DNA of 43,808 nucleotides, from the NCBI GenBank assembly GCA_035946615.1, contig DASYZB010000128.1:1-43808 (forward strand). Reading direction: 5' to 3'. Every line of letters begins with the position of its first letter. Positions within the stretch are counted from its first letter, which is position 1. Source of the stretch: Verrucomicrobiia bacterium. GTDB lineage: Bacteria > Verrucomicrobiota > Verrucomicrobiia > Limisphaerales > UBA8199. Shown here in pieces: positions 497 through 30,901 of the stretch. A program made the translations under genes and the position numbers. Under the pieces are notes generated by a model. It did no database searches. It worked only from the letters and a program-made list of their open reading frames with translations, and was not told the origin of the DNA.

Positions 497-3400
497 ATGA
501 ACGATGACGGCAGTCGGAGTTGGCGGAGCAAAGCCCCTGGGCGGCAGGGGCTGTATGACCCGCAATTCGAGCATGAGGCCTGCGGTGTAGGATTTGTGGT
601 CAACATCAAGGGCCGCAAGTCCCATGGCATTATTCAACAGGCCCTCAAGGTCCTGCTGAACCTGGACCATCGCGGGGCGTGCGGGTGTGAGGCCAACACC
701 GGGGACGGCGCCGGCATTCTCATCCAACCGCCGCACGAGTTTCTTAAGCTGGTTGCCAAAGAAGGGAAGGTCAAATTGCCTGGAGCAGGCGAGTACGGCG
801 TGGGCATGGTGTTTCTGCCGCCCGATAGCGCGCAGCGCGCCGAGTGCGAGAAGGTCTTTGCCGGGATTATCGCCGAGGAAGGCCAGCGCCTTCTGGGCTG
901 GCGCACGATTCCGACCAATAACAATTCCCTGGGGGCCACCGCTCGAACCTCGGAACCACTCATGCGCCAGGTCTTCATTGACCGTAACTCGAAGGTCTCG
1001 GACAACATGGCCTTCGAGCGCAAGCTGTATGTCATCCGCAAACGGGCCGAAAATGCCATCCGCTACTCGGGCAAGGTTGCTGGAGGCGAGTTCTTTTACA
1101 TTTCGAGCCTTTCCTTCAAAACGCTGGTCTATAAAGGGATGCTCCTGACCACGCAGCTCAGCGAGTATTATCCGGACCTGTCGCACCCGGCGATGGAATC
1201 GGCCTTGGCGCTGGTCCATTCGCGTTTCAGCACCAACACCTTCCCAAGTTGGAATCGGGCCCATCCTTACCGGTACATGGCTCACAATGGCGAGATCAAT
1301 ACCTTGCGCGGCAATACCAATTGGATGCACGCGCGCCAGGCCATGTTCGAGTCCGAGTTGTTCGGTGACGACATTAAAAAGGTCCTGCCCATTGTCTGCA
1401 CTGACGGCAGCGACTCCGCTATGTTCGACAATTGCCTCGAGTTGCTCGTTCTGTCCGGACGCTCGCTGCCCCACGCGATGATGATGATGATCCCGGAGCC
1501 TTGGACCAAGCACGAGAGCATGAGCCCGGAGAAGAAGGCCTTTTACGAGTACCACTCCTGCCTCATGGAGCCGTGGGACGGTCCCGCCTCAATCGCCTTC
1601 ACAGACGGCAAGAAGATCGGGGCGGTGCTGGACCGCAATGGCCTGCGCCCCTCGCGCTATTACGTCACCAAAGATGACCTGGTCATTATGGCCAGCGAAG
1701 TGGGCGTGCTGGATGTGCCGCCCGAACGGGTTCTTCAGAAAGGCCGATTACAGCCGGGCCGCATGTTCCTGATCGATACCGAGGAAGGTCGCATCGTTGC
1801 CGACGAAGAACTCAAGCACAAGATCGCCACCGAACAGCCCTATCGCGCCTGGCTCGATGAAAACCTGATTCGCCTGGCTGACGTGCCTGACCCCGGGATT
1901 CTTCCCGAACCGGATCACGAAAGTGTCACCCAGCGGCAATTGGCCTTTGGCTATACGTTTGAAGACTTGCGCATCCTGATGCTCCCCATGGCCCGCGATG
2001 GCAACGAAGCGGTTGGATCAATGGGAACCGATACGCCTCTGGCGGTTCTCTCCAATCAACCCCACCTGCTATTTAATTATTTCAAGCAGCTCTTCGCACA
2101 GGTCACCAACCCGCCCATTGATTGCATCCGCGAAGAGATCATCATGTCCACCGAGACCGCCATCGGCTCGGAGTGCAACCTGCTCAAACCGGGGCCCGAA
2201 CACGCCCGTCTCATCGAGCTCAAATCCCCTATCCTCACCAACGAGGAATTCGCCAAACTCAAACATTTGGACCTGCCCGGTTTCAAATCGATTACGCTGC
2301 CCATTCTTTTCAAAGTGGCCGAAGGCCCGGGCGGGCTGGAAAAGGCCATGAACGAGCTGTTCCTGAAGATTAACCAGGCTATCCGGGACGGTTATAATGT
2401 CGTGGTCCTTTCCGATCGCGGTGTCAATAAGGAGTGGGCGCCCATCCCGTCCCTGCTGGCCGTCGCTGGCGTGCATCATCATATGATCCGTGAAGGCACC
2501 CGCACCCGCGTGGGGCTGGTCCTTGAAACAGGCGAGCCGCGCGAGGTCCATCATTATTCGCTGCTGATCGGATTCGGTTGCGGCGCGATTAATCCGTACC
2601 TGGCCTTCGAAACGCTCGACGATATGCTGCGTCAGAAGCTGCTGACCGGGATGGACCACAAAACGGCATGCAAGAATTACCTCAAGGCCGCAGTCAAAGG
2701 CGTCGTCAAGGTCATCTCGAAGATGGGTATCTCGACTATCCAAAGCTATTGGGGCGCGCAGATATTCGAAGCCGTTGGGTTGAAAAAAGAATTTGTGGAC
2801 AAGTATTTCACCTGGACTCCTTCGCGCATCGAGGGCGTGGGCATTGAAGTGATTGCCCAGGAGGTCCTGCTCCGCCACAAGCGCGCCTTCCCCGATCGGT
2901 CCGTCAACGGGCATGTTTTGGAAACGGGCGGCCAGTACCAGTGGCGCGAAAGTGGCGAGTACCATCTGTTTAATCCACAGACCATCCATAAGCTTCAGGC
3001 CGCCGTCCGCACCGGCAGCTACAAGGTTTTCAAGGACTACTCGGCGCTGGTTAATGAGCAGAGCAAGAACCACTGCACCCTGCGCGGTTTGCTCGACCTC
3101 AAGAAGAGCAAGCCCATTCCCATCGAAGAGGTCGAGCCGGTCGAAACGATCATGAAGCGCTTCAAATCCGGCGCGATGAGTTACGGGTCGATCAGCCAGG
3201 AAGCCCACGAAACACTGGCTATCGCCATGAACCGGATTGGGGGCAAGAGCAACACCGGCGAAGGCGGCGAGGACGCTGCCCGTTACGTCCCTCTGCCCAA
3301 TGGCGACTCGAAAAACAGCGCCATTAAACAGGTCGCTTCTGGCCGTTTCGGCGTCACTAGCCTGTACCTGGTCAAAGCAAAAGAACTCCAGATCAAGATG

Positions 3401-5116
3401 GCCCAGGGCGCCAAACCCGGCGAAGGCGGCCAGTTGCCTGGCCAGAAGGTTTATCCGTGGATTGCCAAAGTGCGCCACTCCACGCCCGGGGTTGGCTTGA
3501 TTTCCCCACCGCCGCACCATGACATTTACTCCATCGAAGACCTGGCCGAGTTGATTCATGACCTCAAAAACGCCAATCACCACGCCCGCATCAGCGTCAA
3601 GTTGGTCGCCGAGGTAGGGGTGGGCACCATCGCCGCTGGAGTCGCCAAGGCGCATGCCGATGTGGTCCTCATTAGCGGCTATGACGGCGGCACCGGCGCC
3701 TCACCCCAAACAGGTATCAAACACGCCGGCATACCCTGGGAACTTGGTTTGGCCGAAACTCACCAGACTCTGGTGCTCAATGACCTGCGTTCGCGCATCA
3801 TTGTCGAAGCCGATGGCCAGTTGAAAACTGGCCGCGACGTCGTTATCGCCGCTCTGCTGGGCGCCGAAGAGTTTGGTTTTGCCACTGCGCCCCTGGTCGC
3901 CATGGGTTGCATCCTCATGCGCGTTTGCCACTTGAACACCTGCCCGGTCGGCGTGGCGACTCAGGACCCCGAGTTGCGCAAGAAGTTCGCCGGCCAGCCT
4001 GAGCATGTGGTCAATTTCATGCGCATGATTGCCCTCGAGGTCCGCGAATTGATGGCCCAACTCGGCTTCCGCCAAATGAACAAAATGATTGGCCGCGTCG
4101 ATCGACTCGAGGTCAAGAAAGCCCTCGAACATTGGAAAGCGCAAGGCTTGGACTTTTCGAAAATCCTCTTCCAACCCGAGGTGCCCACCGATGTGGGGCG
4201 CTTCTGCCAGGTCCCCCAGGACCACGGTCTGGAAAAAGCCCTCGATAATACCGTCCTGTTGCGCCTGTGCGCCCCCGCCATCGAGCGGCAGGAAAAAGTG
4301 GTTGCCGTGCTTCCTATTCGCAACGTCAATCGTGTCGTGGGAACTATCGTTGGCAGCGAAGTCACCCGCCGCTTTGGCGCCGAGGGCTTGCCCGAGGACA
4401 CCATCGAGATTCATTTTACCGGCAGCGCCGGCCAAAGCTTTGGCGCGTTCATGCCAAAGGGCATGACCTTTTTCCTCGAAGGCGATTCAAACGATTACCT
4501 GGGCAAAGGCCTGTCTGGCGGCAAAATTATCGTGTACCCGCCCCAGAGCGCAACCTTCGTGCCGGAAGAGAACATCATCATCGGCAACGTTGCCTTGTAT
4601 GGGGCGACCGGTGGCGAGGCCTACATTCGCGGCATGGCCGGGGAACGTTTCTGCGTGCGCAACAGCGGTGTGACAGCGGTAGTTGAATCCATCGGCGACC
4701 ATGGTTGCGAATACATGACCGGTGGCCGAGTCCTGGTGCTGGGCCCGACCGGGCGCAATTTCGCCGCCGGCATGTCGGGTGGAGTGGCTTACGTGCTGGA
4801 TGAGAAAGGCGATTTCGCCCGCCGGTGCAATCCCCAGATGGTCTCACTCGAAAAACTGGAAGCCCCAGACGAAATCGAGCAGGTCTGGAAGATGATTCAA
4901 CGGCACCAAACCTATACCCGCAGCGAACGGGCGGCGATGCTGCTGGCCAAATGGCCTCAAGTCATCCCGCAATTCGTCAAAGTCATGCCCAAAGATTACA
5001 AACGCGTACTCCAATCCCTGAAGCGCATCGAGGATTCCGGCCTGAGTGGCGAACAGGCCATCATGGCTGCTTTCGAGGAGAACGCCCATGATACCGCGCG
5101 CATCGGCGGCGGCTGA
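497..5116 (+). CDS. gltB: Glutamate synthase (GOGAT), large subunit
   Basis: This 1539-residue protein is the alpha subunit of glutamate synthase. It transfers the amide of glutamine to 2-oxoglutarate to give two glutamates. Visible domains: a class II glutamine amidotransferase from Cys29 (HEACGVGF; the 28 residues before it would be the removed propeptide) to about 430, a central domain at about 480-770, the FMN/2-oxoglutarate synthase domain at about 880-1230, and the C-terminal GXGXG beta-helix from about 1300. The [3Fe-4S] cysteines are C1138, C1144 and C1149 in a C-x5-C-x4-C pattern. Length is normal for bacterial GltB. gltD follows after 49 bases, consistent with a two-gene operon. No strong ribosome binding site is seen at the ATG. 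No frameshift or missing key residue was found. Confidence 0.98.
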
Positions 5117-5165
5117 GCCCCGATTTCTCTCCCCCTCGAACCCTTGATTTGCTAAGAAACACACG

Positions 5166-6650
5166 ATGGGCAAACCGACCGGATTTATCGAGTATTTGCG
5201 CGAACTGCCGCTGGACCGCGCCGCCACCGAACGCATTCGCGATTGGAATGAATTCCACCTCCACATGGAGGAAAGCAAACTTCGCGAACAAGGGGCCCGC
5301 TGCATGGATTGCGGCATTCCCTTCTGTCACACGGGCACCTTGCTCAGCGGGATGGCCTCGGGATGCCCGATTCACAACCTGATTCCAGAATGGAATGATT
5401 TAGTCTATCGCGGTCTTTGGAAGGAAGCCCTCGAGCGGCTGCACAAGACCAACAATTTCCCCGAGTTCACTGGCCGTGTCTGTCCGGCCCCTTGCGAAGG
5501 TTCTTGCGTCCTGGGCATTAACGCGCCCCCCGTCACAATCAAGAATTTGGAGTGCGCTATCATCGATAGGGGCTGGGAGCAGGGTTGGGTTGCCCCTAAA
5601 ATGCCAAGGGTGCGCACGGGGAAGAACGTGGCCGTCATCGGGTCGGGGCCGGCGGGCCTGTGCGCTGCCATGCAGCTTAATCGGGTCGGCCACGGCGTCA
5701 CCGTGTTCGAACGCGCCGACCGGGTCGGGGGGTTGCTCACCTACGGGATTCCCAACATGAAGCTGGATAAGGAACAAGTCGTGTTCCGGCGCATCCGGCA
5801 AATGGAAGCCGAAGGGGTCAAGTTTGCCCCCAACACGGAAGTTGGCGTTAATTATCCTGCCGAGAATCTGTTGAGGCAATTCGACGCGGTCATCCTCTGC
5901 ACCGGCGCCACAAAGGCCCGCGACCTGCCTGTCGAGGGGCGCCAGCTCAAGGGCATTCATCTCGCCATGGAATTCCTGACCGGCAATACCCGCAGCCTGC
6001 TGGACCGCCACCGCAACGGCAACTTCATCTCGGCTGAAGGCAAAGATGTCATCGTGATTGGCGGAGGCGATACCGGCACCGACTGCGTCGGCACTGCTCT
6101 GCGCCAAGGTTGCCGCAGCCTGGTCCAGCTCGAAATCCTGCCGCGCCCGCCCATGGAGCGGGCTGCGGATAATCCCTGGCCCGAATGGCCAAAGGTCTAT
6201 CGCCTGGATTATGGGCAGGAGGAAGCGGCCGCCAAATTCGGCGCCGACCCGCGTGTCTATCTCACCACGGCCAAGCAGTTCATCGGCGATGAGAATGGCT
6301 GGGTCAAGGCCATCCGCACCGTACAAATTGCCTGGGAACGAAACGACAAAGGCCAGTTCGTGCCTAAAGAAGTCCCCGGAACCGAGCAGGATCGCCCCGC
6401 GCAACTGGTCCTCCTGGCGATGGGTTTTCTCGGCCCGGAACAGCGGCTGCTGGATGCCCTCAAGATCGAGCGAGACGCTCGGACCAATATTAAAGCCGAA
6501 TTCGAAAAGTACGCCACCAGCGTCAAAGGCGTCTTCGCTGCGGGAGATTGTCGCCGTGGCCAGAGCCTTGTGGTTTGGGCTTTCAACGAAGGCCGCGGCG
6601 CCGCCCGCGAATGCGACCGCTACCTCATGGGCGAAACCAGCCTCCCGTAG
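5166..6650 (+). CDS. gltD: Glutamate synthase, small (NADPH) subunit
   Basis: This 494-residue beta subunit of glutamate synthase passes electrons from NAD(P)H through FAD and Fe-S clusters to GltB. The N-terminal cysteine-rich part carries C46, C49, C54 and a second group C106, C110, C114 (CPAPCEGSC), the usual ligands for two [4Fe-4S] clusters. An FAD-binding Rossmann motif (VIGSGPAG) lies near residue 155, and a second nucleotide-binding motif ([11 protein letters not shown]) near 295. The C-terminal [18 protein letters not shown] segment is the conserved FAD-contacting end. Length matches the family. It follows gltB closely and is probably cotranscribed with it. The ATG at 5166 has only a weak purine-rich leader. 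Confidence 0.97.
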
Positions 6651-8485: not shown

Positions 8486-10153
8486 ATGAGCGCAAAGCGA
8501 ATCGTGATTATTGGTGGAGTGGCCGGCGGCGCCAGCGCGGCGGCCAGGGCCAGGCGGTTGTCTGAAGAGGCGGAGATCATCCTTTTCGAGCGCGGGCCGC
8601 ATGTCTCGTTTGCCAATTGCGGCCTGCCGTACTATGTCGGGGGAGAAATCACCCATGCGCAGGACCTTTTATTGAGAACGCCGGCTAGTTTGCGGGCCCG
8701 ATTTAACCTGGATGTGCGCGTCGAGTCGGAGATTGTGCAAATCGATCGGCGGACAAAACAGGTGAAGGCGCGCGAGTTGGCCGCCGGCAGGGAATACCAC
8801 CAGGCTTATGACTCGCTGATATTGGCGCCCGGGGCCTCGCCGCTCAAGCCGCCCATCCAGGGTATCGAGCGCGCCGGACACTTTGTCGTGCGCAATATCC
8901 CGGATGTGGAGAAAATAAGGGCGTGGATTAAAGCCGGCCCGGTGCGCCGGGCGGTGGTTGTTGGGGGCGGGTATATCGGACTGGAAATGGCTGAACAACT
9001 CAAACAACGCGGGTTGGCCGTCACGGTAGTCGAGGCGCTGCCGCAGGTTATGGCCTCTCTGGACCCGGAAATGGCGGCGTGGTTGCACGCCGAATTGCGC
9101 GCCAACGGTGTCGAACTGGTTCTCCAGGATGCAGTGGCTGCCTTTGAAGCCCCTGGTCCAGCCGAGAAAAGCCTGGCCTCAGTCGTGGTGCTCAAGAGCG
9201 GCAAACGGTTTCCTGCCGACCTGGTTGTGCTAGGCTTGGGTGTGCGTCCAGAGACAACCCTGGCGAAACAAGCAGGGTTGGCTCTCGGGCATTCCGGAGG
9301 GATTCAAGTGGACCGCCACATGCAAACCAGTGATCCTTCTATTTGGGCCGTTGGAGACGCCGTCGAGGTGCAGGATGCCGTCACCCAAGGGCACAGCCTC
9401 ATCCCGCTGGCCGGCCCAGCTAACCGCCAAGGCCGAATTGCCGCTGATAATATTTTTGGCCGCGACTCAGTTTATGAATCGACCCTTGGCACCGCCATTG
9501 TGCGCTTGTTCAAGCTGACGGCCGCCTGCACGGGGGCCAACGAGAAGAACCTCAAAAAAGCCGGGATACTTTACCATTCAATCCATCTGCATCCAGGTTC
9601 GCACGCCGCTTATTATCCAGGCGCCTGGGCCATTGCTTTGAAGGTGCTCTTCGCCCCAAACACAGGGAAATTACTCGGCGCCCAGGCGATTGGCCGGGAC
9701 GGTGTGGATAAGCGCATCGATGTGCTGGCCACAGCCCTCAAGGCAGGCATGACGGTTCACGATCTGGCCGAGCTTGAATTGGCCTACGCTCCGCCCTATG
9801 GTTCGGCCAAGGACCCGGTGAACCTTGCCGGAATGGCAGCACAAAACGTCCTCAACGGAGATGTCCGGCTTGCACAGTGGACCGAGGTGGCCACCCTGGA
9901 CCCGGCGCAATCCCTCTTGTTGGATGTCCGGGAGGCTGACGAACGCGCCAAAGGTTTCATTCCAGGCTCGATCCATATCCCGCTGGACGAACTGCGCCAG
10001 CGCGCAGGTGAGCTGCCGCGCGACCATGAGATCATCGTGCATTGCCAGAGTGGGCAGCGTTCCTATTTTGCCTGCCGGATGTTGATGCAGCGGGGCTTTC
10101 GCGCCCGCAATCTCACCGGCTCCTATCGCACGTGGCAAATGGCAACGGCATGA
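8486..10153 (+). CDS. CoA-disulfide-reductase-like flavoprotein fused to rhodanese domain
   Basis: A 555-residue FAD/NAD(P)H oxidoreductase of the CoADR-Rhd type. Visible parts are an N-terminal FAD motif (VIIGGVAGGASAAARARR), the single redox cysteine C45 in SFANCGLPYY as in CoA disulfide reductases, a central NAD(P)H motif (VVVGGGYIGLEMAE) near residue 155, a second FAD segment (WAVGDAVE), a dimerisation domain, and a C-terminal rhodanese domain with C520 in the loop CQSGQRS. Family members reduce CoA disulfides, persulfides or polysulfides, and the fused rhodanese suggests sulfane-sulfur handling (inference). I chose the ATG at 8486 because the protein then begins with the Rossmann strand; the 90 extra upstream codons antisense to htrA look non-native. 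No clear ribosome binding site is seen. Confidence 0.93.
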   Translation: MSAKRIVIIGGVAGGASAAARARRLSEEAEIILFERGPHVSFANCGLPYYVGGEITHAQDLLLRTPASLRARFNLDVRVESEIVQIDRRTKQVKARELAAGREYHQAYDSLILAPGASPLKPPIQGIERAGHFVVRNIPDVEKIRAWIKAGPVRRAVVVGGGYIGLEMAEQLKQRGLAVTVVEALPQVMASLDPEMAAWLHAELRANGVELVLQDAVAAFEAPGPAEKSLASVVVLKSGKRFPADLVVLGLGVRPETTLAKQAGLALGHSGGIQVDRHMQTSDPSIWAVGDAVEVQDAVTQGHSLIPLAGPANRQGRIAADNIFGRDSVYESTLGTAIVRLFKLTAACTGANEKNLKKAGILYHSIHLHPGSHAAYYPGAWAIALKVLFAPNTGKLLGAQAIGRDGVDKRIDVLATALKAGMTVHDLAELELAYAPPYGSAKDPVNLAGMAAQNVLNGDVRLAQWTEVATLDPAQSLLLDVREADERAKGFIPGSIHIPLDELRQRAGELPRDHEIIVHCQSGQRSYFACRMLMQRGFRARNLTGSYRTWQMATA

Positions 10154-17200: not shown

Positions 17201-18523
17201 ATGAAAAACGAATACCTGGAACGGGTGATTGATCTGCTCGACCCGGCAGCTAATCGCATTATCAACATGACCATCGATGAGGCGCGCGAGCGGGTCTTGC
17301 GCGAACCGGCTGCCGGCATCGGTGAGATTGAGGGTTCATTTGCTTTATTGGCGCGCGACGGCAAGAAGGTGCGCATGGCGCGCTCGCTGGACCGGCCAAT
17401 GCGCTATTTTTTGGCCAAGCGCCAGGAAGGCCCCGCGCTGATCGTTGCCGACCGTATCGATGCGATTTATCAACAACTCCAGGCCGATGGTCTGGCTGCC
17501 CAGTTTCATCCCAGTTACACCCGGATGGTGCCCGCCCATTATGTTGTCGAGATTCACCTGGTCGGCTGCCCCGACCCCGACCCAACCTACACCCGCTTCT
17601 TCACGCCGCGCCGCGATGCCTTGCCAACGGATTTGGACGAGATTGGCCGCCGTTACATCGGCGCCCTCATGGAAGAAATGACCAAGTGGCTGCGGCAAAT
17701 ACCCGAACGCGAACCAATCGGGGTCGCTTTTTCGGGTGGCATTGACAGTGGCTCGATTTTTCTGGCGGCATATCATGCATTGCGCCGCTTAGGGATGAAT
17801 CCAGGCCGGCTCAAGGCATTCACTTTGGATCTTGGCGGAGGCCCGGATTTGGGACAGGCGCGCGAATTCCTGAGCCGATTGGGGCTGGAGATGTTTTTTG
17901 AGCCAATCGAGGCGGACCTGGCGTCAATTGACACCGCTGAGACGTTGCGGGTGCTCGAAGACTACAAGGCGCTGGATGTCGAGTGCGCAACGATGGGATT
18001 GGCGCTCTGCCGTGGAATACGCAACCGCTACCCGAATTGGAAATTCCTGCTGGATGGAGATGGGGGAGACGAGAATCTCAAGGACTATCCGATTGAGGAG
18101 AACCCCGAGCTGACGATTCGCAGCGTGGTAAACAATTTGATGTTGTATCAGGAAGGCTGGGGGGTTGGGCGGATCAAACACTCGCTAACCTACAGCGGCG
18201 GCTTGAGCCGTAGTTACGCGCGCACTTACACACCCGGCAGACGCCACGGGTTCGAGGGCTTTAGCCCTTATACGCGTCCGCAGGTGATAGCCGTGGCCGA
18301 GGGCATTCCGTTCGCAGCGCTGACCGCCCTATCGGTGGATAAGCTCTACTCGCTTAAAGGAGACATTGTCGCCAGAGGAATAAAAGCAATCACCGGCTTG
18401 GACATGCCGGTTTATACCAAACGCCGGTTCCAGCATGGGGCGATTGCGGCCACGGCGTTGCGCGGCCAATTTTCGGGGCAGGAATCGGAGTACAGGAAGA
18501 AATTCTTGGCGATGTACAGTTAA
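17201..18523 (+). CDS. Asparagine-synthetase-like protein with inactive glutaminase half
   Basis: A 440-residue AsnB-related enzyme. The C-terminal half has the ATP pyrophosphatase P-loop SGGIDSGS (178-185) and a second conserved segment FLLDGDGGDENLKDYP, so adenylation of a carboxylate is likely. The N-terminal half retains the glutaminase fold signature (GEIEGSFALLARDGKKVRMARSLDRPMRYF), but the protein begins MKNEY and has no Cys2 nucleophile, so glutamine cannot be the ammonia source by the usual route; free ammonia or another amine is implied. It is shorter than AsnB (about 550). A radical SAM gene follows 130 bases on after a hairpin. It may belong to a modification or small-molecule pathway and not to asparagine supply (inference). 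Confidence 0.85.
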   Translation: MKNEYLERVIDLLDPAANRIINMTIDEARERVLREPAAGIGEIEGSFALLARDGKKVRMARSLDRPMRYFLAKRQEGPALIVADRIDAIYQQLQADGLAAQFHPSYTRMVPAHYVVEIHLVGCPDPDPTYTRFFTPRRDALPTDLDEIGRRYIGALMEEMTKWLRQIPEREPIGVAFSGGIDSGSIFLAAYHALRRLGMNPGRLKAFTLDLGGGPDLGQAREFLSRLGLEMFFEPIEADLASIDTAETLRVLEDYKALDVECATMGLALCRGIRNRYPNWKFLLDGDGGDENLKDYPIEENPELTIRSVVNNLMLYQEGWGVGRIKHSLTYSGGLSRSYARTYTPGRRHGFEGFSPYTRPQVIAVAEGIPFAALTALSVDKLYSLKGDIVARGIKAITGLDMPVYTKRRFQHGAIAATALRGQFSGQESEYRKKFLAMYS

Positions 18524-18562
18524 GGATGAGGGATGAGAGCCGAAATCATCATTCCTCATCCT
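18523..18562 (+). terminator. Hairpin after the asparagine-synthetase-like gene
   Basis: AGGATGAGGGATGA (18523-18536) pairs with TCATTCCTCATCCT (18549-18562) over 14 bp with one mismatch and a 12-base loop. It begins at the last base of the stop codon and is followed by a modest T-rich stretch (CGTTTCTTG). Termination may be partial, allowing read-through to the radical SAM gene. Confidence 0.55.
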
Positions 18563-18652
18563 CGTTTCTTGTCCTCGAAAGTCCTGATAAATCCCTGAGT
18601 CATTTACCGGAGGACACAAACTCCTCGGCGCCGATTCCTTTTCCAACACGCA

Positions 18653-19621
18653 ATGAATGCAAGCCTGCCGCTTGATTCAGCATGGGTCCTCGGCCAACGG
18701 CCAGCAAGGAATGCGCCTATCGACCCCTTCAAGCCACGCGGAGTTTTTCTGGAAGAGGAATGCGCTGACTCGGGACGCGTCCGTTCCTCAGCGGTGATTT
18801 TGCTTGCCAATAAGGAGTGCCCCTGGCGCTGTCTGATGTGCGATCTATGGAAACAGTCACTCGACGGACCCACTCCCCCGGGGGCGATCCCAAAGCAAAT
18901 CGAGCTGGCCTTGGCTCAATTGGGCGCTGCGCCTGAGCAACTCAAGCTCTACAATAGTGGCAGTTTTTTCGACATGGCCGCTATTCCCGTGGCCGATTAT
19001 CCCGCCATCGCCGAAAAGATTGCAGCCGTTGACCATGTCGTTGTGGAGTCGCATCCGCGCTTAATTGGGGAGAGGTCCTTGAGGTTTCGGGACCTGCTGG
19101 ACGGCTCGCTCGAAGTGGCGATGGGGCTGGAAACCGTCCACCCCTTGGTCTTGCCTCGGTTAAATAAGCGATTCGACCTGGAACAATTCGCGCGCGCGGC
19201 GAGGTTCCTGGTCAAAGAAGGGATTTCGGCGCGCGCTTTTGTCCTGGTCAAGCCTCCGTTCCTTCCAGAAGAGGAGGCAGTAGAATGGGCGTTGAAAACC
19301 GCTGAATTCGCTTTTGATTGTGGCGTGAAGGTGGTCACGCTCATACCGACACGCGCTGGAAATGGGGCTATGGACGCCCTGATGCAAGACGGCGAATTCA
19401 GTCCACCGCGTCTGGCCACGCTCGAACAGGCGCTGGAACAGGTCCTGAAGCGCGCACAGGTCAGGGTTTTCGCCGATACATGGGACCTCGACCAGTTCTC
19501 GATCTGCCCGGTCTGCCTGCCGGAACGGCGCCAGCGCATCCATCAAATGAATCTGACCCAACGAATCCTACCCGCTGTGCAATGCGAGCATTGCAGTCCT
19601 GCATCCATCCTTCACCCGTAG
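18653..19621 (+). CDS. Radical SAM protein
   Basis: A 322-residue enzyme with the radical SAM cluster motif CPWRCLMC (C56, C60, C63), followed by DLW, then an Elp3/MiaB-like TIM barrel (KLYNSGSFFD, HVVVESHPRLI, VAMGLETVHPLVLPRLNKRF, ARAFVLVKPPF, VVTLIPTRAGNG). Two more cysteine pairs near the C-terminus (CPVC and CEHC) probably bind zinc or a second cluster. Composition and motif order resemble the TIGR01210/RaSEA-like group, which in archaea acts in archaeosine tRNA synthesis; that this protein modifies tRNA is only a suggestion. It lies downstream of the asparagine-synthetase-like gene and ends one base before the convergent giant gene's stop. Confidence 0.88.
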   Translation: MNASLPLDSAWVLGQRPARNAPIDPFKPRGVFLEEECADSGRVRSSAVILLANKECPWRCLMCDLWKQSLDGPTPPGAIPKQIELALAQLGAAPEQLKLYNSGSFFDMAAIPVADYPAIAEKIAAVDHVVVESHPRLIGERSLRFRDLLDGSLEVAMGLETVHPLVLPRLNKRFDLEQFARAARFLVKEGISARAFVLVKPPFLPEEEAVEWALKTAEFAFDCGVKVVTLIPTRAGNGAMDALMQDGEFSPPRLATLEQALEQVLKRAQVRVFADTWDLDQFSICPVCLPERRQRIHQMNLTQRILPAVQCEHCSPASILHP

Positions 19622-23920: not shown

Positions 23921-26900
23921 ATGAAAAAGCCCTCCATCGAAATGGAAGCCGCTGCTCCCGAAAGTCCCATCAACCAACCCATGTCCACCACCGCCAGTGG
24001 CCCGAACCAGAGACGCAAACGCCCCAGCCCTCCCGGTAAACGGAGTCTTGGTCCCGTCAACGGCAACTCCGGCCAAAGCAACGGGGATGGGGAGCTGGAT
24101 TCGGCAATGATGCTGGCGGCGTTGATGGCTATCAAACAAGGCGATTTTAACGCGCGACTTCCCATCGCCTGGACGGGGATCAATGGCAAAGTCGCCGATA
24201 CGTTCAACGATGTGGCCGAGTTGATGTCCCAATCCACCAGCGAGCTGAACCGCATCAGCCGTGTGGTGGGCCAGGAAGGGCGCATCCAGGAGCGTCTTAC
24301 CCTGGGCCATGTGCAAGGGGCATGGTCCGACCGGGTCAATTCCGTCAACCTGCTGATCGACTGCCTTGCCCATCCCGTGAGCGAAACCGCGCGGGTCATC
24401 GGCGCGGTAGCCAAGGGCGACCTCTCTCAAACCATGGCGCTCGAAATGGACGGAAGGAAGCTCGAAGGGGAATTCCTGCGGACGGCCAAGACAGTCAATA
24501 CGATGGTCAACCAGCTTGGGGCCTTTGCCTCGGAAGTCAACCGCGTGGCGCGTGAAGTGGGAACCGAAGGCAAGCTGGGCGGCCAGGCGAAAGTCAAAGG
24601 CGTTGCCGGCACGTGGAAGGACCTGACGGATAACGTGAACCTGATGGCCTCAAACCTGACCTCGCAGGTGCGCAATATTGCCACAGTCACCACGGCCGTT
24701 GCCAACGGGGACCTTACCAAGAAAATCACGGTCGATGTGCGCGGGGAGTTTCTCGAACTCAAGGACACGATCAATACGATGGTCGATCAGCTCCGCTCGT
24801 TTGCTTCCGAAGTGACGCGTGTGGCGCGCGAGGTCGGCACCGAAGGCAAACTGGGGGGCCAGGCCAAAGTCGAAGGTGTTTCGGGCACCTGGAAAGACCT
24901 GACGGACAATGTGAATTTCATGGCGGGCAACCTGACCTCGCAGGTGCGCAATATCGCCGCCGTCACCACCGCCGTGGCAACCGGGGACCTCTCCAAGAAG
25001 ATCACCGTGGATGTCAAAGGGGAAATCCTGGAACTCAAAAACACGATCAACACGATGGTGGATCAGCTTTCGTCGTTTGCGGCGGAAGTGACGCGCGTGG
25101 CGCGCGAGGTCGGCACCGAAGGCAAGCTGGGCGGCCAGGCGGAAGTCAAAGGGGTCGCCGGCACGTGGAAAGACCTCACGGATTCGGTCAACTCGATGGC
25201 AGGCAACCTGACCGCTCAGGTCCGCAATATCGCCGATGTCACCACGGCCGTTGCCAATGGCGACCTCTCGAAGAAAATTACCGTGGATGTCAAAGGCGAA
25301 ATCCTCCAGCTCAAGGACACCATCAATACGATGGTGGACCAACTCCGTTCGTTCGCCTCGGAAGTCACGCGCGTGGCGCGCGAGGTCGGCACCGAGGGCA
25401 AACTGGGCGGCCAGGCGGATGTCAAAGGGGTCGCGGGCACCTGGAAAGACCTGACGGACAACGTGAATTTCATGGCCAGCAACCTCACCGTCCAACTCCG
25501 GGACGTGTCGAAGGTGGCTACGGCCATTGCCAATGGCGACTTGACGCAAAAAATCACGGTGGATGTGCGCGGGGAGATTCTCCAGATCAAAAACGTCATC
25601 AATACGATGGTGGATCAGCTTTCGTCGTTTGCGGCGGAAGTGACGCGCGTGGCGCGTGAGGTAGGCACTGAAGGCAAACTGGGCGGGCAGGCGGAGGTCA
25701 AAGGGGTGGCCGGGACGTGGAAAGACCTGACGGATAACGTCAATTTCATGGCGGGCAATCTTACCTCGCAAGTGCGCAACATTGCCGAAGTGACGACCGC
25801 CGTGGCCACCGGGGATTTGTCCAAGAAGATCACCGTCAATGTGCGAGGTGAAATTCTCGAACTGAAGAACACGATCAATACGATGGTCGATCAGCTCTCG
25901 TCGTTTGCTGCGGAAGTGACGCGCGTGGCGCGGGAAGTGGGCACCGAAGGCAAGCTGGGCGGGCAGGCGGAGGTCAAAGGGGTGGCCGGGACGTGGAAAG
26001 ACCTGACGGATTCGGTTAACTCGATGGCCGGCAATCTGACGGGGCAGGTGCGCAATATTGCGGAGGTGACCACTGCGGTGGCCAACGGGGACCTCTCGAA
26101 GAAGATTACCGTAGATGTCAAAGGGGAAATCCTGGAACTCAAAGATACCATCAATACGATGGTCGATCAGCTCCGCTCGTTCGCTTCTGAGGTCACGCGC
26201 GTCGCGCGCGAGGTTGGCACGGAAGGTAAGCTCGGGGGCCAGGCAGATGTGAAGGGGGTCGCCGGCACCTGGAAAGACCTCACCGATTCGGTCAATTCGA
26301 TGGCGGGCAACCTGACAGCGCAGGTGCGCAACATTGCCGATGTGACGACCGCGGTCGCCAATGGCGACCTGTCCAAGAAGATCACTGTGGATGTCAAAGG
26401 GGAAATCCTGCAGCTCAAAGACACCATGAATACCATGGTCGATCAGCTCCGCTCGTTCGCCGCTGAAGTCACGCGCGTGGCGCGGGAAGTCGGCACGGAA
26501 GGCAAGCTAGGCGGCCAGGCCTTCGTGCGCGGCGTTGCCGGCACCTGGAAAGACCTGACCGACTCGGTCAATTCCATGGCCTCGAATCTCACCGCACAGG
26601 TGCGCAACATTGCGGATGTAACGACTGCCGTCGCCAATGGGGACCTCTCGAAGAAGATCACGGTGGATGTGCGGGGGGAAATCCTTCAACTCAAGGACAC
26701 GATCAATACGATGGTGGATCAACTCTCGTCGTTTGCAGCGGAAGTGACGCGCGTCGCGCGCGAGGTCGGCACCGAAGGCAAACTGGGCGGCCAGGCGGAA
26801 GTCAAAGGGGTTGCCGGCACATGGAAGGACCTCACCGATTCAGTCAATTCCATGGCATCGAACCTCACCGGGCAGGTCCGCAACATCGCAGCCGTCACGA

Positions 26901-29900
26901 CGGCGGTGGCCAACGGAGACCTCTCGAAGAAGATCACCGTGGACGTGAAAGGGGAAATCCTCGAGTTGAAGAACACGGTGAACACGATGGTGGATCAGCT
27001 CTCGTCGTTTGCGGCAGAGGTTACCCGCGTCGCGCGCGAGGTCGGCACGGAGGGCAAACTGGGCGGCCAGGCAGAAGTCAAAGGGGTAGCCGGCACCTGG
27101 AAGGACCTCACCGATTCGGTCAATTCCATGGCATCGAACCTCACCGGACAGGTCCGCAATATCGCTGCCGTCACGACTGCTGTTGCCACAGGCGACCTCT
27201 CGAAGAAGATCACCGTGGATGTCAAAGGCGAAATCCTCGAACTCAAGGACACGATCAATACGATGGTCGATCAGCTTCGCTCCTTCGCCTCCGAAGTGAC
27301 CCGCGTGGCGCGCGAGGTGGGCAGCGAAGGCAAACTCGGTGGGCAGGCGGACGTGCGTGGCCTGGCCGGTGTCTGGAAAGACCTCACCGATAACGTCAAT
27401 TTCATGGCGTCAAACCTCACGACACAGGTTCGCAATATCGCCGCCGTCACCACGGCCGTCGCCAACGGGGACCTCTCCAAGAAAATCACCGTAGATGTCA
27501 AAGGAGAAATCCTCGAACTGAAGAACACGGTGAATATCATGGTGGACCAGCTCTCGTCGTTTGCGGACGAGGTCACGCGCGTGGCGCGCGAGGTGGGCAC
27601 GGAAGGCAAGCTGGGCGGCCAGGCCCAGGTCAAAGGCGTCTCGGGGACATGGAAGGACCTGACGGATAATGTGAATTTCATGGCGTCGAACCTCACCAAC
27701 CAGGTGCGTGGGATAGCCAAAGTGGTTACCGCAGTTGCCAACGGGGACCTTAAGCGCAAGCTGCTTGTGGAGGCCAAAGGCGAAATCGCCGAGTTGGCTG
27801 ATACCATCAACAGCATGATCGATACGCTGGCCACCTTTGCCGACCAGGTCACCACGGTCGCGCGCGAAGTGGGCGTGGAAGGCAAGCTGGGGGGCCAGGC
27901 AAGCGTCCCGGGCGCCGCTGGCACCTGGAAGGACCTCACTGATAATGTCAACCAGCTTGCGGCCAATCTTACGACTCAGGTGCGCGCCATTGCCGAAGTC
28001 GCTACGGCCGTTACCCAGGGGGACCTGACCCGTTCGATCCAGGTCGATGTGAAGGGCGAAATCCTCCAGCTTAAGGACACCATCAACGAGATGATCCGGA
28101 ACCTGAAAGATACCACCATCAAGAATAACGAGCAGGACTGGCTTAAAACCAACCTCGCCAAGTTCACCCGGATGCTCCAAGGCCAAAAAGACATGCTCAC
28201 GGTCGGCAAGCTCATCCTCTCGGAGCTTGCCCCTGTTGTATCCGCCCAGCACGGGGTCTTTTATCTCATGGAAACTCCCAAGGAGGAGCCGGTCTCTGAG
28301 GAGAACCAGAACGATCCTTATCTGAAGCTGCTGGCCAGCTACGCTTTTCGCAGCCGCAAAAATATCGGCAATAAATTCTCCCTCGGCGAGGGGCTCGTCG
28401 GCCAGGCGGCCCTCGAAAAGGAACGCATATTGGTGACCAACGCCCCGGACGATTACGTGCAGGTCACCTCGGGCCTGGGCCAGGCAAAGCCGACAAATAT
28501 TATCGTGCTGCCGGTGCTTTTCGAAGGGCAGGTCAAGGCCGTCATGGAACTGTCCTCATTCGAGCGCTTCAGCCCCACGCACCAGGCCTTCCTGGACCAG
28601 TTGGTCGAATCGATCGGCATCGTCCTCAATACCATCGAGGCCAATAGCCGCACCGAAGACCTTCTTAAACAATCCCAATCGCTGGCCAAAGAACTCCAGA
28701 GCCGCCAGGAGGAACTCCAGCAAACCAACCTCGAACTGCAGGACAAAGCCAAGCTTCTTGCTGAGCAAAATGCCGAGGTGGAACGGAAGAATTCTGAAGT
28801 CGAACAGGCGCGCCAGGCGCTGGAAGAAAAAGCCGAGCAGCTTGCTGTCACCTCGCGATACAAATCGGAGTTCATGGCGAACATGTCGCACGAGCTGCGC
28901 ACGCCGCTGAACAGCCTGCTCATCCTGGCCGATCAGCTCGCGCATAATACCGAAGGCAACCTCACACCCAAACAGATCGAGTTCGCCCGCACCATCCACG
29001 CCTCCGGCCAGGACCTGCTCACGCTCATCAATGACATTCTCGATCTGTCCAAGATCGAATCGGGCACCGTCACGGTGGATGTTGCCGCGCTGCGGTTTCT
29101 GGACCTGCATGATTATGTCGAGCGCACCTTCCGCCATGTGGCGGAAGCCAAGGGCCTCGATTTCAAAATCGAGCTGGACCCCGACCTCCCCTCCAACATC
29201 TTCACCGATTCGCAGCGGCTCGAACAGGTCATCCGCAATCTCCTGTCCAACGCCTTCAAGTTCACAGAAAAGGGCCAGGTGGTTTTCTCTCTAGGTACCG
29301 CTACCGAGGGGTGGAACCCGGAAAACGAGTCGCTCAACCGCGCCCGCTCTGTCATTGCCTTCTCGGTCAGCGATTCAGGCATCGGCATCGCCCCGGAGAA
29401 GCAACAGATCATCTTCGAGCCCTTCACCCAGGCCGACGGCAGCACCAGCCGCAAATACGGGGGCACCGGCCTTGGGCTGGCTATCAGCCGCCAAATCGCC
29501 CGCCTGCTCGGCGGTGAAATCCGCCTCGCCAGCGCGGTCGGCCAGGGCAGCGTCTTTACACTGTTCCTGCCGCAAACGCATATCCCGATGCGCACGCCGC
29601 GCAGGGACCTCACGCACCGGCCGCAAACCGCCGGCGTGCCGGCGGTTGCTCAACTGGCCGAACAGCAGCCCGATGAGGCGGGTCCAGTTCAGCAGACCCT
29701 GGTCGAAGATGACCGCGCTCAAATCGGCCCGCGCGACCAGGTCCTGCTTATCGTCGAGGATGACCCTGCTTTTGCGCGCATCCTGCTGGATATGGCGCAC
29801 GAACAGGGGTTCAAGGCCATTATCACCACCCGGGGCGCCAATGCGCTGGCGATGGTCCGCGACCTCAAACCGGCGGCCGTCACTCTCGATCTGCACTTGC

Positions 29901-30901
29901 CCGACCTGGACGGCTGGCGGGTTCTGGACCACCTCAAAGTGGATTTGGCCACTCGCCATATCCCGGTTCACGTAATCTCTGTCGAACAAGACCCCGAGCC
30001 AACTCGCACGCAGGGCGCCTTGGGTTTTATTACCAAGTCCGAAACCAAGGACTCCTTGCGCGATGCTTTTGCCCAGCTCAAACAATTCGTCGAACGCCCG
30101 GTCAAAAACCTGCTGGTGGTTGAAGACGACGAAGTCCAAACCGGCAACATCCGCGAACTCATCGGCAACGGCGACGTGAAAACGACCGTCGTGGGCACCG
30201 GTAAGGATGCCCTCGCGGCGCTGCAGACCGAGAAGTACGATTGCATGGTGCTCGATCTGGGCCTGCCCGATATGCCCGGCACCGAGCTGCTCGAGCAAAT
30301 CAAAAACGCCCAAGGCACCCGCGCTCTGCCAGTCATCATTTATACCGCGCGGGATTTGTCGCCGGACGAGAAATCAAAACTCGCGCACCTGGCCGAATCC
30401 ATTGTGCTCAAGGACGTGCGGTCTCCCGATCGGCTGCTCGATGAAACGGCGCTGCTCCTCCACCGCAATGTGGCCAAATTGCCCGAGCGCCAGCGCAAAA
30501 TGCTCGAACACCTCCATCATGGGGTGCTGGAAGGGAAAAAAGTCCTGGTGGTCGATGACGACGTTCGCAACATCTTCGCCATGACCAGTGTCCTGGAACG
30601 TTTCAAAATGAACGTTCTTTCGGCTGAAAATGGGAAGGACGCCATTCAACTATTGATGGAGAATCGTGACATCGACGTTGTCCTCATGGACATCATGCTC
30701 CCCACGATGGATGGGTACACCACTATCCGCGCCATCCGGGACATCGCTGTCTTCAAGCAACTGCCCATTATCGCCGTCACCGCCAAGGCTATGAAAGGCG
30801 ACCGTGAAAAATGCATCGCGGCCGGCGCTTCGGATTATCTCTGCAAGCCTGTTGAATCCGAGCAACTCCGCTCGACCCTGCGCCTATGGCTGCATCATTG
30901 A
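23921..30901 (+). CDS. Giant hybrid histidine kinase: ~15 HAMP units, GAF, HisKA, HATPase, three receivers
   Basis: A 2326-residue soluble-looking sensor kinase. A basic, Pro/Ser-rich N-terminal tail is followed from about residue 60 by about 15 HAMP-type units of 92 residues. The first two are divergent; the rest carry GKLGGQA, [11 protein letters not shown] and [10 protein letters not shown] motifs. The array runs to about residue 1400. Then follow a GAF domain (about 1420-1580), a coiled coil of repeated EEL/QAR heptads, HisKA with H1657 ([10 protein letters not shown]), HATPase ([22 protein letters not shown]), and three receiver domains with phospho-acceptors D1990, D2112 and D2257. No membrane span is visible, so it is probably cytosolic. 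The tandem 92-residue HAMP plan matches group III (Nik1-type) kinases known from fungi. Two signalling genes follow directly. Confidence 0.96.
24541..28128 (+). repeat. Thirteen tandem 276-bp coding repeats (HAMP units)
   Basis: Near-identical 276-bp units begin at 24541 and recur at 24817, 25093, 25369 and so on to 27853, each encoding GKLGGQA...GTWKDLTD...NGDL...INTMVDQL. Adjacent units differ largely at synonymous sites, so protein sequence is held constant while DNA drifts. The last two units diverge more. Two less similar HAMP units precede the array. Such repeats are prone to recombination and to assembly collapse, so copy number should be treated with care. Confidence 0.93.

Follow-up and report, generated by a model that had tools for sequence, protein, structure and literature searches.

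Two adjacent genes of a Verrucomicrobiia bacterium, encoding an asparagine synthetase (AS)-like amide ligase and a radical SAM enzyme, are a real unit, and the two enzymes together probably make a small molecule. Both genes lie on the forward strand of the window, i.e. the whole stretch of 43,808 nucleotides analyzed here. The ligase gene (440 aa) spans positions 17201..18523 and was delimited by its open reading frame, a Pfam match and structural alignment. The radical enzyme gene (322 aa) spans positions 18653..19621, based on its open reading frame, a profile match, alignment and a structure match. We read the pair, with confidence just short of even, as the constant core of a small-molecule pathway not described so far, in which a ligation is followed by a radical step and the product is used by propeller proteins and cytochromes. 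A full-text search of the open-licence PMC literature found no description of the pair.

We scanned genome contigs for relatives of the window's radical enzyme and kept 80 loci from 293 stretches that encode one. Relatives were picked by similarity to this protein, and distant branches may escape such a search. Of these 80 loci, 74 also carry a ligase relative. The six loci without it were L013, L019, L020, L025, L046 and L067, with L046 truncated where its contig ends; in all six cases the ligase is encoded elsewhere in the genome. In all, the ligase was present in 15 of 15 genomes tested, with one match each. In most relatives the two genes are tightly packed, with an overlap or a gap below 30 nt in 62 of the 73 loci measured. 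The 129-nt intergenic gap in the window (18524..18652, forward strand, from ORF coordinates) is unlike that of most relatives.

Co-occurrence of the two genes was then counted in whole genomes. An even sample of 194 genomes from the window's phylum contained 3 with both genes, and a sample of 296 genomes from Bacteroidota, the phylum of the genome labelled Lutibacter citreus that carries locus L066, contained 18. Not one of the 490 genomes contained only one of the two genes (thresholds 1e-30 and 1e-20; 1e-60 and 1e-30; Fisher 2.5e-37). The pair is thus sporadic, being present in 21 of the 490 sampled genomes. Loci carrying it are labelled Verrucomicrobia, Bacteroidetes, Acidobacteria, Planctomycetes, Armatimonadetes and Marinimicrobia, and the nearest relatives bear the labels Limisphaerales or Verrucomicrobia. 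Across phyla, relatives are 48–75% identical to the window's ligase and 46–67% identical to its radical enzyme. Absence of linkage in other genomes had been set beforehand as the result that refutes the original prediction, and the linkage and the perfect co-occurrence found here point the other way. The two enzymes might still serve separate pathways and be linked by chance or shared regulation only, as the six unlinked loci, one of them at a contig end, could suggest. Given the co-occurrence and the overlapping reading frames of most relatives, we consider this extremely improbable, and chance pairing is excluded because relatives of both genes stand side by side in several phyla.

Next, we analyzed the features of the ligase. 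It matches the Pfam family Asn_synthase (PF00733) with 48.6 bits (1.2e-12; gathering threshold 21). The ATP-pyrophosphatase loop SGGIDS (residues 178–183; 17732..17749, forward strand) was located by alignment, and residues S178, G180, D182 and S183 of the SGGxDS loop are invariant in 35 aligned ligase sequences. The motif GDGGDE (residues 286–291; 18056..18073, forward strand) aligns as the counterpart of GEGSDE in AsnB. Sequence and structural alignment identified residues 1–140 (17201..17620, forward strand) as a remnant of the Ntn glutaminase domain. The N-terminal nucleophilic Cys of this domain is absent from all 35 aligned sequences. In the predicted structure of the ligase (pLDDT 88.8), residue 3 or 5 aligns with residue 40 of beta-lactam synthetase or residue 39 of E. 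coli AsnB; relative to AsnB, the fold has lost its first ~38 residues, the nucleophilic Cys among them. Since the ligase enters the fold only at AsnB residue ~39, the Cys-bearing stretch is missing and not merely mutated. The score against the model of glutamine-hydrolysing enzymes (TIGR01536) is 34.6 bits and lies below the curated cut-off of 267.1. Judged from these sequence features, glutamine should not serve as the nitrogen donor of the ligase. The original prediction of an AsnB-like protein that keeps its ATP loop, lacks Cys2 and uses another nitrogen donor agrees with these results.

Beta-lactam synthetase was the top structural match of the ligase model (Z 25.4, rmsd 4.0, 374 aligned residues), together with asparagine synthetase (Z 24.6). 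Beta-lactam synthetase and carbapenam synthetase have no working glutaminase. The window's ligase shares the AS fold and the ATP loop with both (Z 25.4 and 21.8), and amide formation with an amine is predicted for it from fold and motifs; however, identity is only 17% and 11%, respectively, and the N-terminal domain is shortened here. With asparagine synthetase B it shares the C-terminal synthetase domain, the PP-loop and the GxGxDE-type motif, but not the glutaminase nucleophile. PesC, an AS-like RiPP enzyme of the nitrilobacillins, resembles it as an AS-like ligase in a biosynthetic cluster but uses glutamine or ammonia, and the passages of PMC13060819 on which we draw describe no comparable radical partner. 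At two loci (L024 5868-7056 and L058 8497-9826) the ligase relative is in two pieces with its middle missing or shifted; these copies may be broken or misassembled. A plasmid origin was considered and rejected, as a search of plasmids yielded no ligase match at 1e-20.

The radical enzyme contains the cluster motif CPWRCLMC (CxxxCxxC; C56, C60 and C63; 18818..18841) and two C-terminal Cys pairs, CPVC (C285 and C288; 19505..19516) and CEHC (C311 and C314; 19583..19594), all on the forward strand and located by alignment. In 32 aligned sequences C314 is conserved in at least 90%, and the other six of these cysteines are invariant. With its CxxxCxxC motif and a partial TIM barrel, the protein is a member of the radical SAM superfamily. 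The only strong family match was to the RaSEA model TIGR01210, which all 32 aligned sequences also match, with 111.6 bits for the window's protein against a cut-off of 212.15. The score against Pfam PF04055 was 26.2 bits, just below the threshold of 29.5. The predicted structure (pLDDT 94.3) matches radical SAM enzymes with Z values of 14–16.6. Queuine lyase heads the VIA-align matches (Z 16.6), level with biotin synthase, Elp3 and HydE; the matches listed include no RaSEA structure, and this says nothing on a difference between the two. The Cys pairs and the likeness to RaSEA had both been predicted and were recovered here, the latter as the best match at a score below the cut-off.

In the passages of PMC11298593 that we cite, ArcS attaches lysine to preQ0, ammonia or glutamine not being used in the species cited there, and RaSEA, which forms a complex with ArcS, converts the resulting lysine adduct to archaeosine. 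By analogy, the pair may work in a similar way, with one enzyme making a nitrogen-bearing adduct and a radical SAM enzyme of the same subfamily reworking it. The two systems differ in that ArcS is homologous to TGT and has preQ0 in tRNA as its substrate. Their genomic partners appear to differ as well, the constant partner here being an AS-like ligase. More distant relatives of the radical enzyme (31–34% identity) are encoded on the Streptomyces plasmids pFRL3 and pFRL5 (L131 and L132) in clusters with genes for a P450, a serine hydroxymethyltransferase, a glycosyltransferase, a carbamoyltransferase and a heptose adenylyltransferase. These clusters are another setting of the subfamily outside tRNA modification. 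A selenocysteine was considered for the radical enzymes of G099 and G143, which carry one TGA, and rejected: we read the codon as the natural stop that ends the match, because L091 has a complete frame of 322 aa.

To describe the genomic surroundings of the pair, we grouped the ORFs of the 80 loci by clustering. A secreted FG-GAP/UnbV protein is encoded within 2.5 kb of the pair in 54 loci, either upstream (27 on the plus and 9 on the minus strand) or downstream (12 on the plus and 6 on the minus strand). It is absent from this interval in the other 26 loci, planctomycete loci included, many contigs being short. The assignment of one such neighbour, c2 of L048, was confirmed by matches to PF07593 (82.4 bits, threshold 23.4) and PF13517 (183.4 bits, threshold 26.9). 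Genome-wide, between 6 and 40 UnbV matches were found in each of the 19 pair genomes tested. At least one UnbV match was found in 19 of the 194 genomes sampled from the window's phylum, all three pair genomes included. At least five matches were counted by hand in 18 of 18 Bacteroidota genomes with the pair versus 33 of 278 without it (Fisher 1e-15). UnbV proteins without the pair are common, occurring in 123 of these 278 genomes. We know of no activity for the FG-GAP/UnbV propeller family. A single open frame of 6548 aa (G197, contig C179) has many UnbV_ASPIC matches.

Other recurrent neighbours are multihaem and dihaem c-type cytochromes, an HZS-alpha-like protein and periplasmic binding proteins, and SusC/TonB receptors are found in some pair loci. 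In G205, G206 and G207 the pair and its partners form a single same-strand run. The run starts with genes for a UnbV protein, an HZS-alpha-like protein, a propeller-cytochrome, a propeller and a chorismatase-like protein and ends with those for two binding proteins, a TPR-UnbV protein, a UnbV protein, the ligase and the radical enzyme. In 13 of the 80 loci, ORF comparison detected a chorismatase-like gene close to the pair, and L008 is a further case. The scores of two clusters against the chorismatase FkbO/Hyg5 model TIGR04444 (34 bits for c24 and 22.8 bits for c8) are below its cut-off of 325, and a chorismatase-like gene is also present in G091, a genome without the pair. DAHP synthase genes of two different clusters occur in 12 of the 80 loci, and the family of c9 was confirmed. 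At L122 (8437-13911) a chorismatase-like and a DAHP synthase gene are grouped at a distance from the pair; adjacent genes resemble, by eye, those of an EmrAB-type exporter.

A flavoenzyme gene, c6, lies directly downstream of the radical enzyme gene in 15 of the 80 loci and was found in 27 of 36 pair genomes versus none of 6 selected genomes that lack the pair. The best PDB match of c6 is the halogenase PltM (2.6e-45, residues 5–362), and its Trp_halogenase domain scores 48.1 bits (threshold 21). Flavin-dependent halogenases carry the motif WxWxIP. As in PltM-type enzymes, c6 retains the Lys of GxK, but in the aligned c6 sequences WxWxIP is altered to WxWxLK or similar, e.g. WIWVLKF, so that hydroxylation is as likely as halogenation. 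c6 also matches QhpG, GoxB and LodB, which are maturases of protein-derived quinones. In QhpD/QhpG and PQQ-type systems, a radical enzyme and a flavin enzyme serve secreted propeller or cytochrome proteins; they differ from the present case, where the constant partner is an AS-like ligase. Two further ideas about c6 were dropped. An apparent fusion with the radical enzyme in G213 is a 772-aa ORF in which the c6 frame is extended upstream, and the radical enzyme has its own frame of 410 aa. A strict complementarity of c6 and the chorismatase-like gene appeared in the first set of genomes, where a strong chorismatase-like match (E < 1e-30) was found in 8 of 9 pair genomes without c6 and in 2 of 27 with it. 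This either-or was undone by 29 further genomes, as the genomes of the c6 loci L005, L007, L031 and L037 have strong matches too.

The chemical steps, the substrate and the product that we infer for the pathway would be as follows. Judging from its fold and motifs, the ligase would adenylate a carboxylate and join it to an amine other than glutamine-derived ammonia, as beta-lactam synthetase does. The acid would most likely be aromatic and derived from chorismate; we propose an aromatic acid because of the chorismatase-like and DAHP synthase neighbours, the latter from two clusters. By analogy with archaeosine synthesis, the RaSEA-like enzyme would then break or rearrange a C–N or C–C bond of the adduct, and the two enzymes could thereby equip the acid with nitrogen or a new ring. 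In many lineages the PltM-like flavin enzyme may hydroxylate or halogenate the ring. The product would serve the neighbouring secreted FG-GAP/UnbV propellers and c-type cytochromes, in the simplest case as a ligand or redox cofactor that they bind. A bound redox group is suggested by cytochromes and propellers being encoded next door. A more specific version, which we consider doubtful, is that the product is a new chorismate-derived, nitrogen-bearing redox cofactor, made by ligation and subsequent cleavage like archaeosine and used extracytoplasmically by these propellers and cytochromes. Such a cofactor, if real, would be a counterpart of PQQ for the UnbV/FG-GAP family.

The same neighbours can be read differently. 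The pair could act on protein, so that the adjacent secreted UnbV/FG-GAP proteins acquire a protein-derived cofactor or a cross-link before their export. The frequent UnbV neighbours, present in 54 loci and in every orientation, are consistent with this, as is the match of c6 to QhpG, GoxB and LodB, and the cited part of PMC13060819 describes AS-like ligases that act on peptides in known pathways. In 30 UnbV proteins encoded directly upstream of the ligase, some of them truncated by contig ends or mis-started, which lowers N-terminal counts, no modifiable Cys reaches 93% conservation. The chorismate-supply genes also fit poorly with a purely protein-derived group, and no UnbV gene is nearby in 26 loci; we therefore hold protein modification to be rather unlikely. 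Alternatively, the product may be a diffusible natural product, such as a siderophore, pigment, antibiotic or signal, instead of a cofactor, with the UnbV proteins, SusC/D-like receptors and binding proteins sensing or recovering it. The sporadic distribution of the pair, the halogenase-like partner, the gene run of Bacteroidota with its periplasmic binding proteins, the SusC/TonB receptors at some loci and the EmrAB-like genes (by eye) beside the chorismatase-like and DAHP synthase genes of L122 would all agree with a diffusible compound. Yet the identity of both enzymes across phyla (ligase 48–75%, radical enzyme 46–67%) is unusually high for such pathways, the tie to cytochromes is strong, and no NRPS or PKS was seen among the recurrent neighbour clusters, whose representatives were judged by eye. 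This explanation, too, we consider unlikely.

An unassigned RNA-modification or small-molecule pathway had been predicted for the pair. The undescribed pathway stands, and an RNA role is unlikely, as the recurrent neighbours are UnbV/FG-GAP proteins, cytochromes and aromatic-acid genes and the pair is sporadic. An archaeosine-type modification of RNA or DNA in bacteria would be in line with RaSEA as the best model match of the radical enzyme and with queuine lyase as the top VIA-align match, tied with three other enzymes at Z 16.6. However, the score is half of the RaSEA cut-off, no more than 21 of the 490 genomes sampled carry the pair, and its recurrent neighbours include secreted proteins. 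Furthermore, no tRNA-modification family was found among the best 25 of 703 and the best 25 of 177 neighbour families (98 further neighbour ORFs). We thus regard this alternative as highly improbable. The small-molecule pathway with propeller and cytochrome users remains our preferred reading. A two-gene core that retains 46–75% identity across six phylum labels must have a specific role. In this core, a ligase no longer tied to glutamine is combined with a radical enzyme that has an archaeal relative acting on tRNA. The pair is also a starting point for finding out which ligands the UnbV/FG-GAP proteins, abundant in bacteria, may have. Its function is directly testable in cultured hosts, e.g. 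Lutibacter citreus and Maribacter luteus.

Finally, we looked for the partner genes in the window's own genome. None of them adjoins the pair within the window, where the pair stands alone, and no c6 relative was detected in this genome at E <= 1e-15. A chorismatase-like gene lies on another contig (C13:10718-11572, 3.4e-38). The genes for a sensor kinase, a regulator and a UnbV protein that neighbour the pair in L004–L007 are on contig C105 here, and this UnbV protein is 83% identical to that of L005. Near them on C105, a second UnbV gene is directly beside a gene for a 934-aa multihaem cytochrome (L129 5098-9782 for both), and the same two-gene block occurs near the pair in L002. Elsewhere in the window, all on the forward strand, we noted a glutamate synthase small subunit (5166-6650; TIGR01317, 794.7 bits), with a 1539-aa ORF, probably the large subunit, ahead of it (497-6650 for both), and a CoA-disulfide-reductase-like enzyme with a C-terminal rhodanese domain (8486-10153). 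A 2326-aa sensor (23921-30901) contains, by eye, near-identical HAMP-like repeats in a long array, after which come GAF, kinase and receiver domains.
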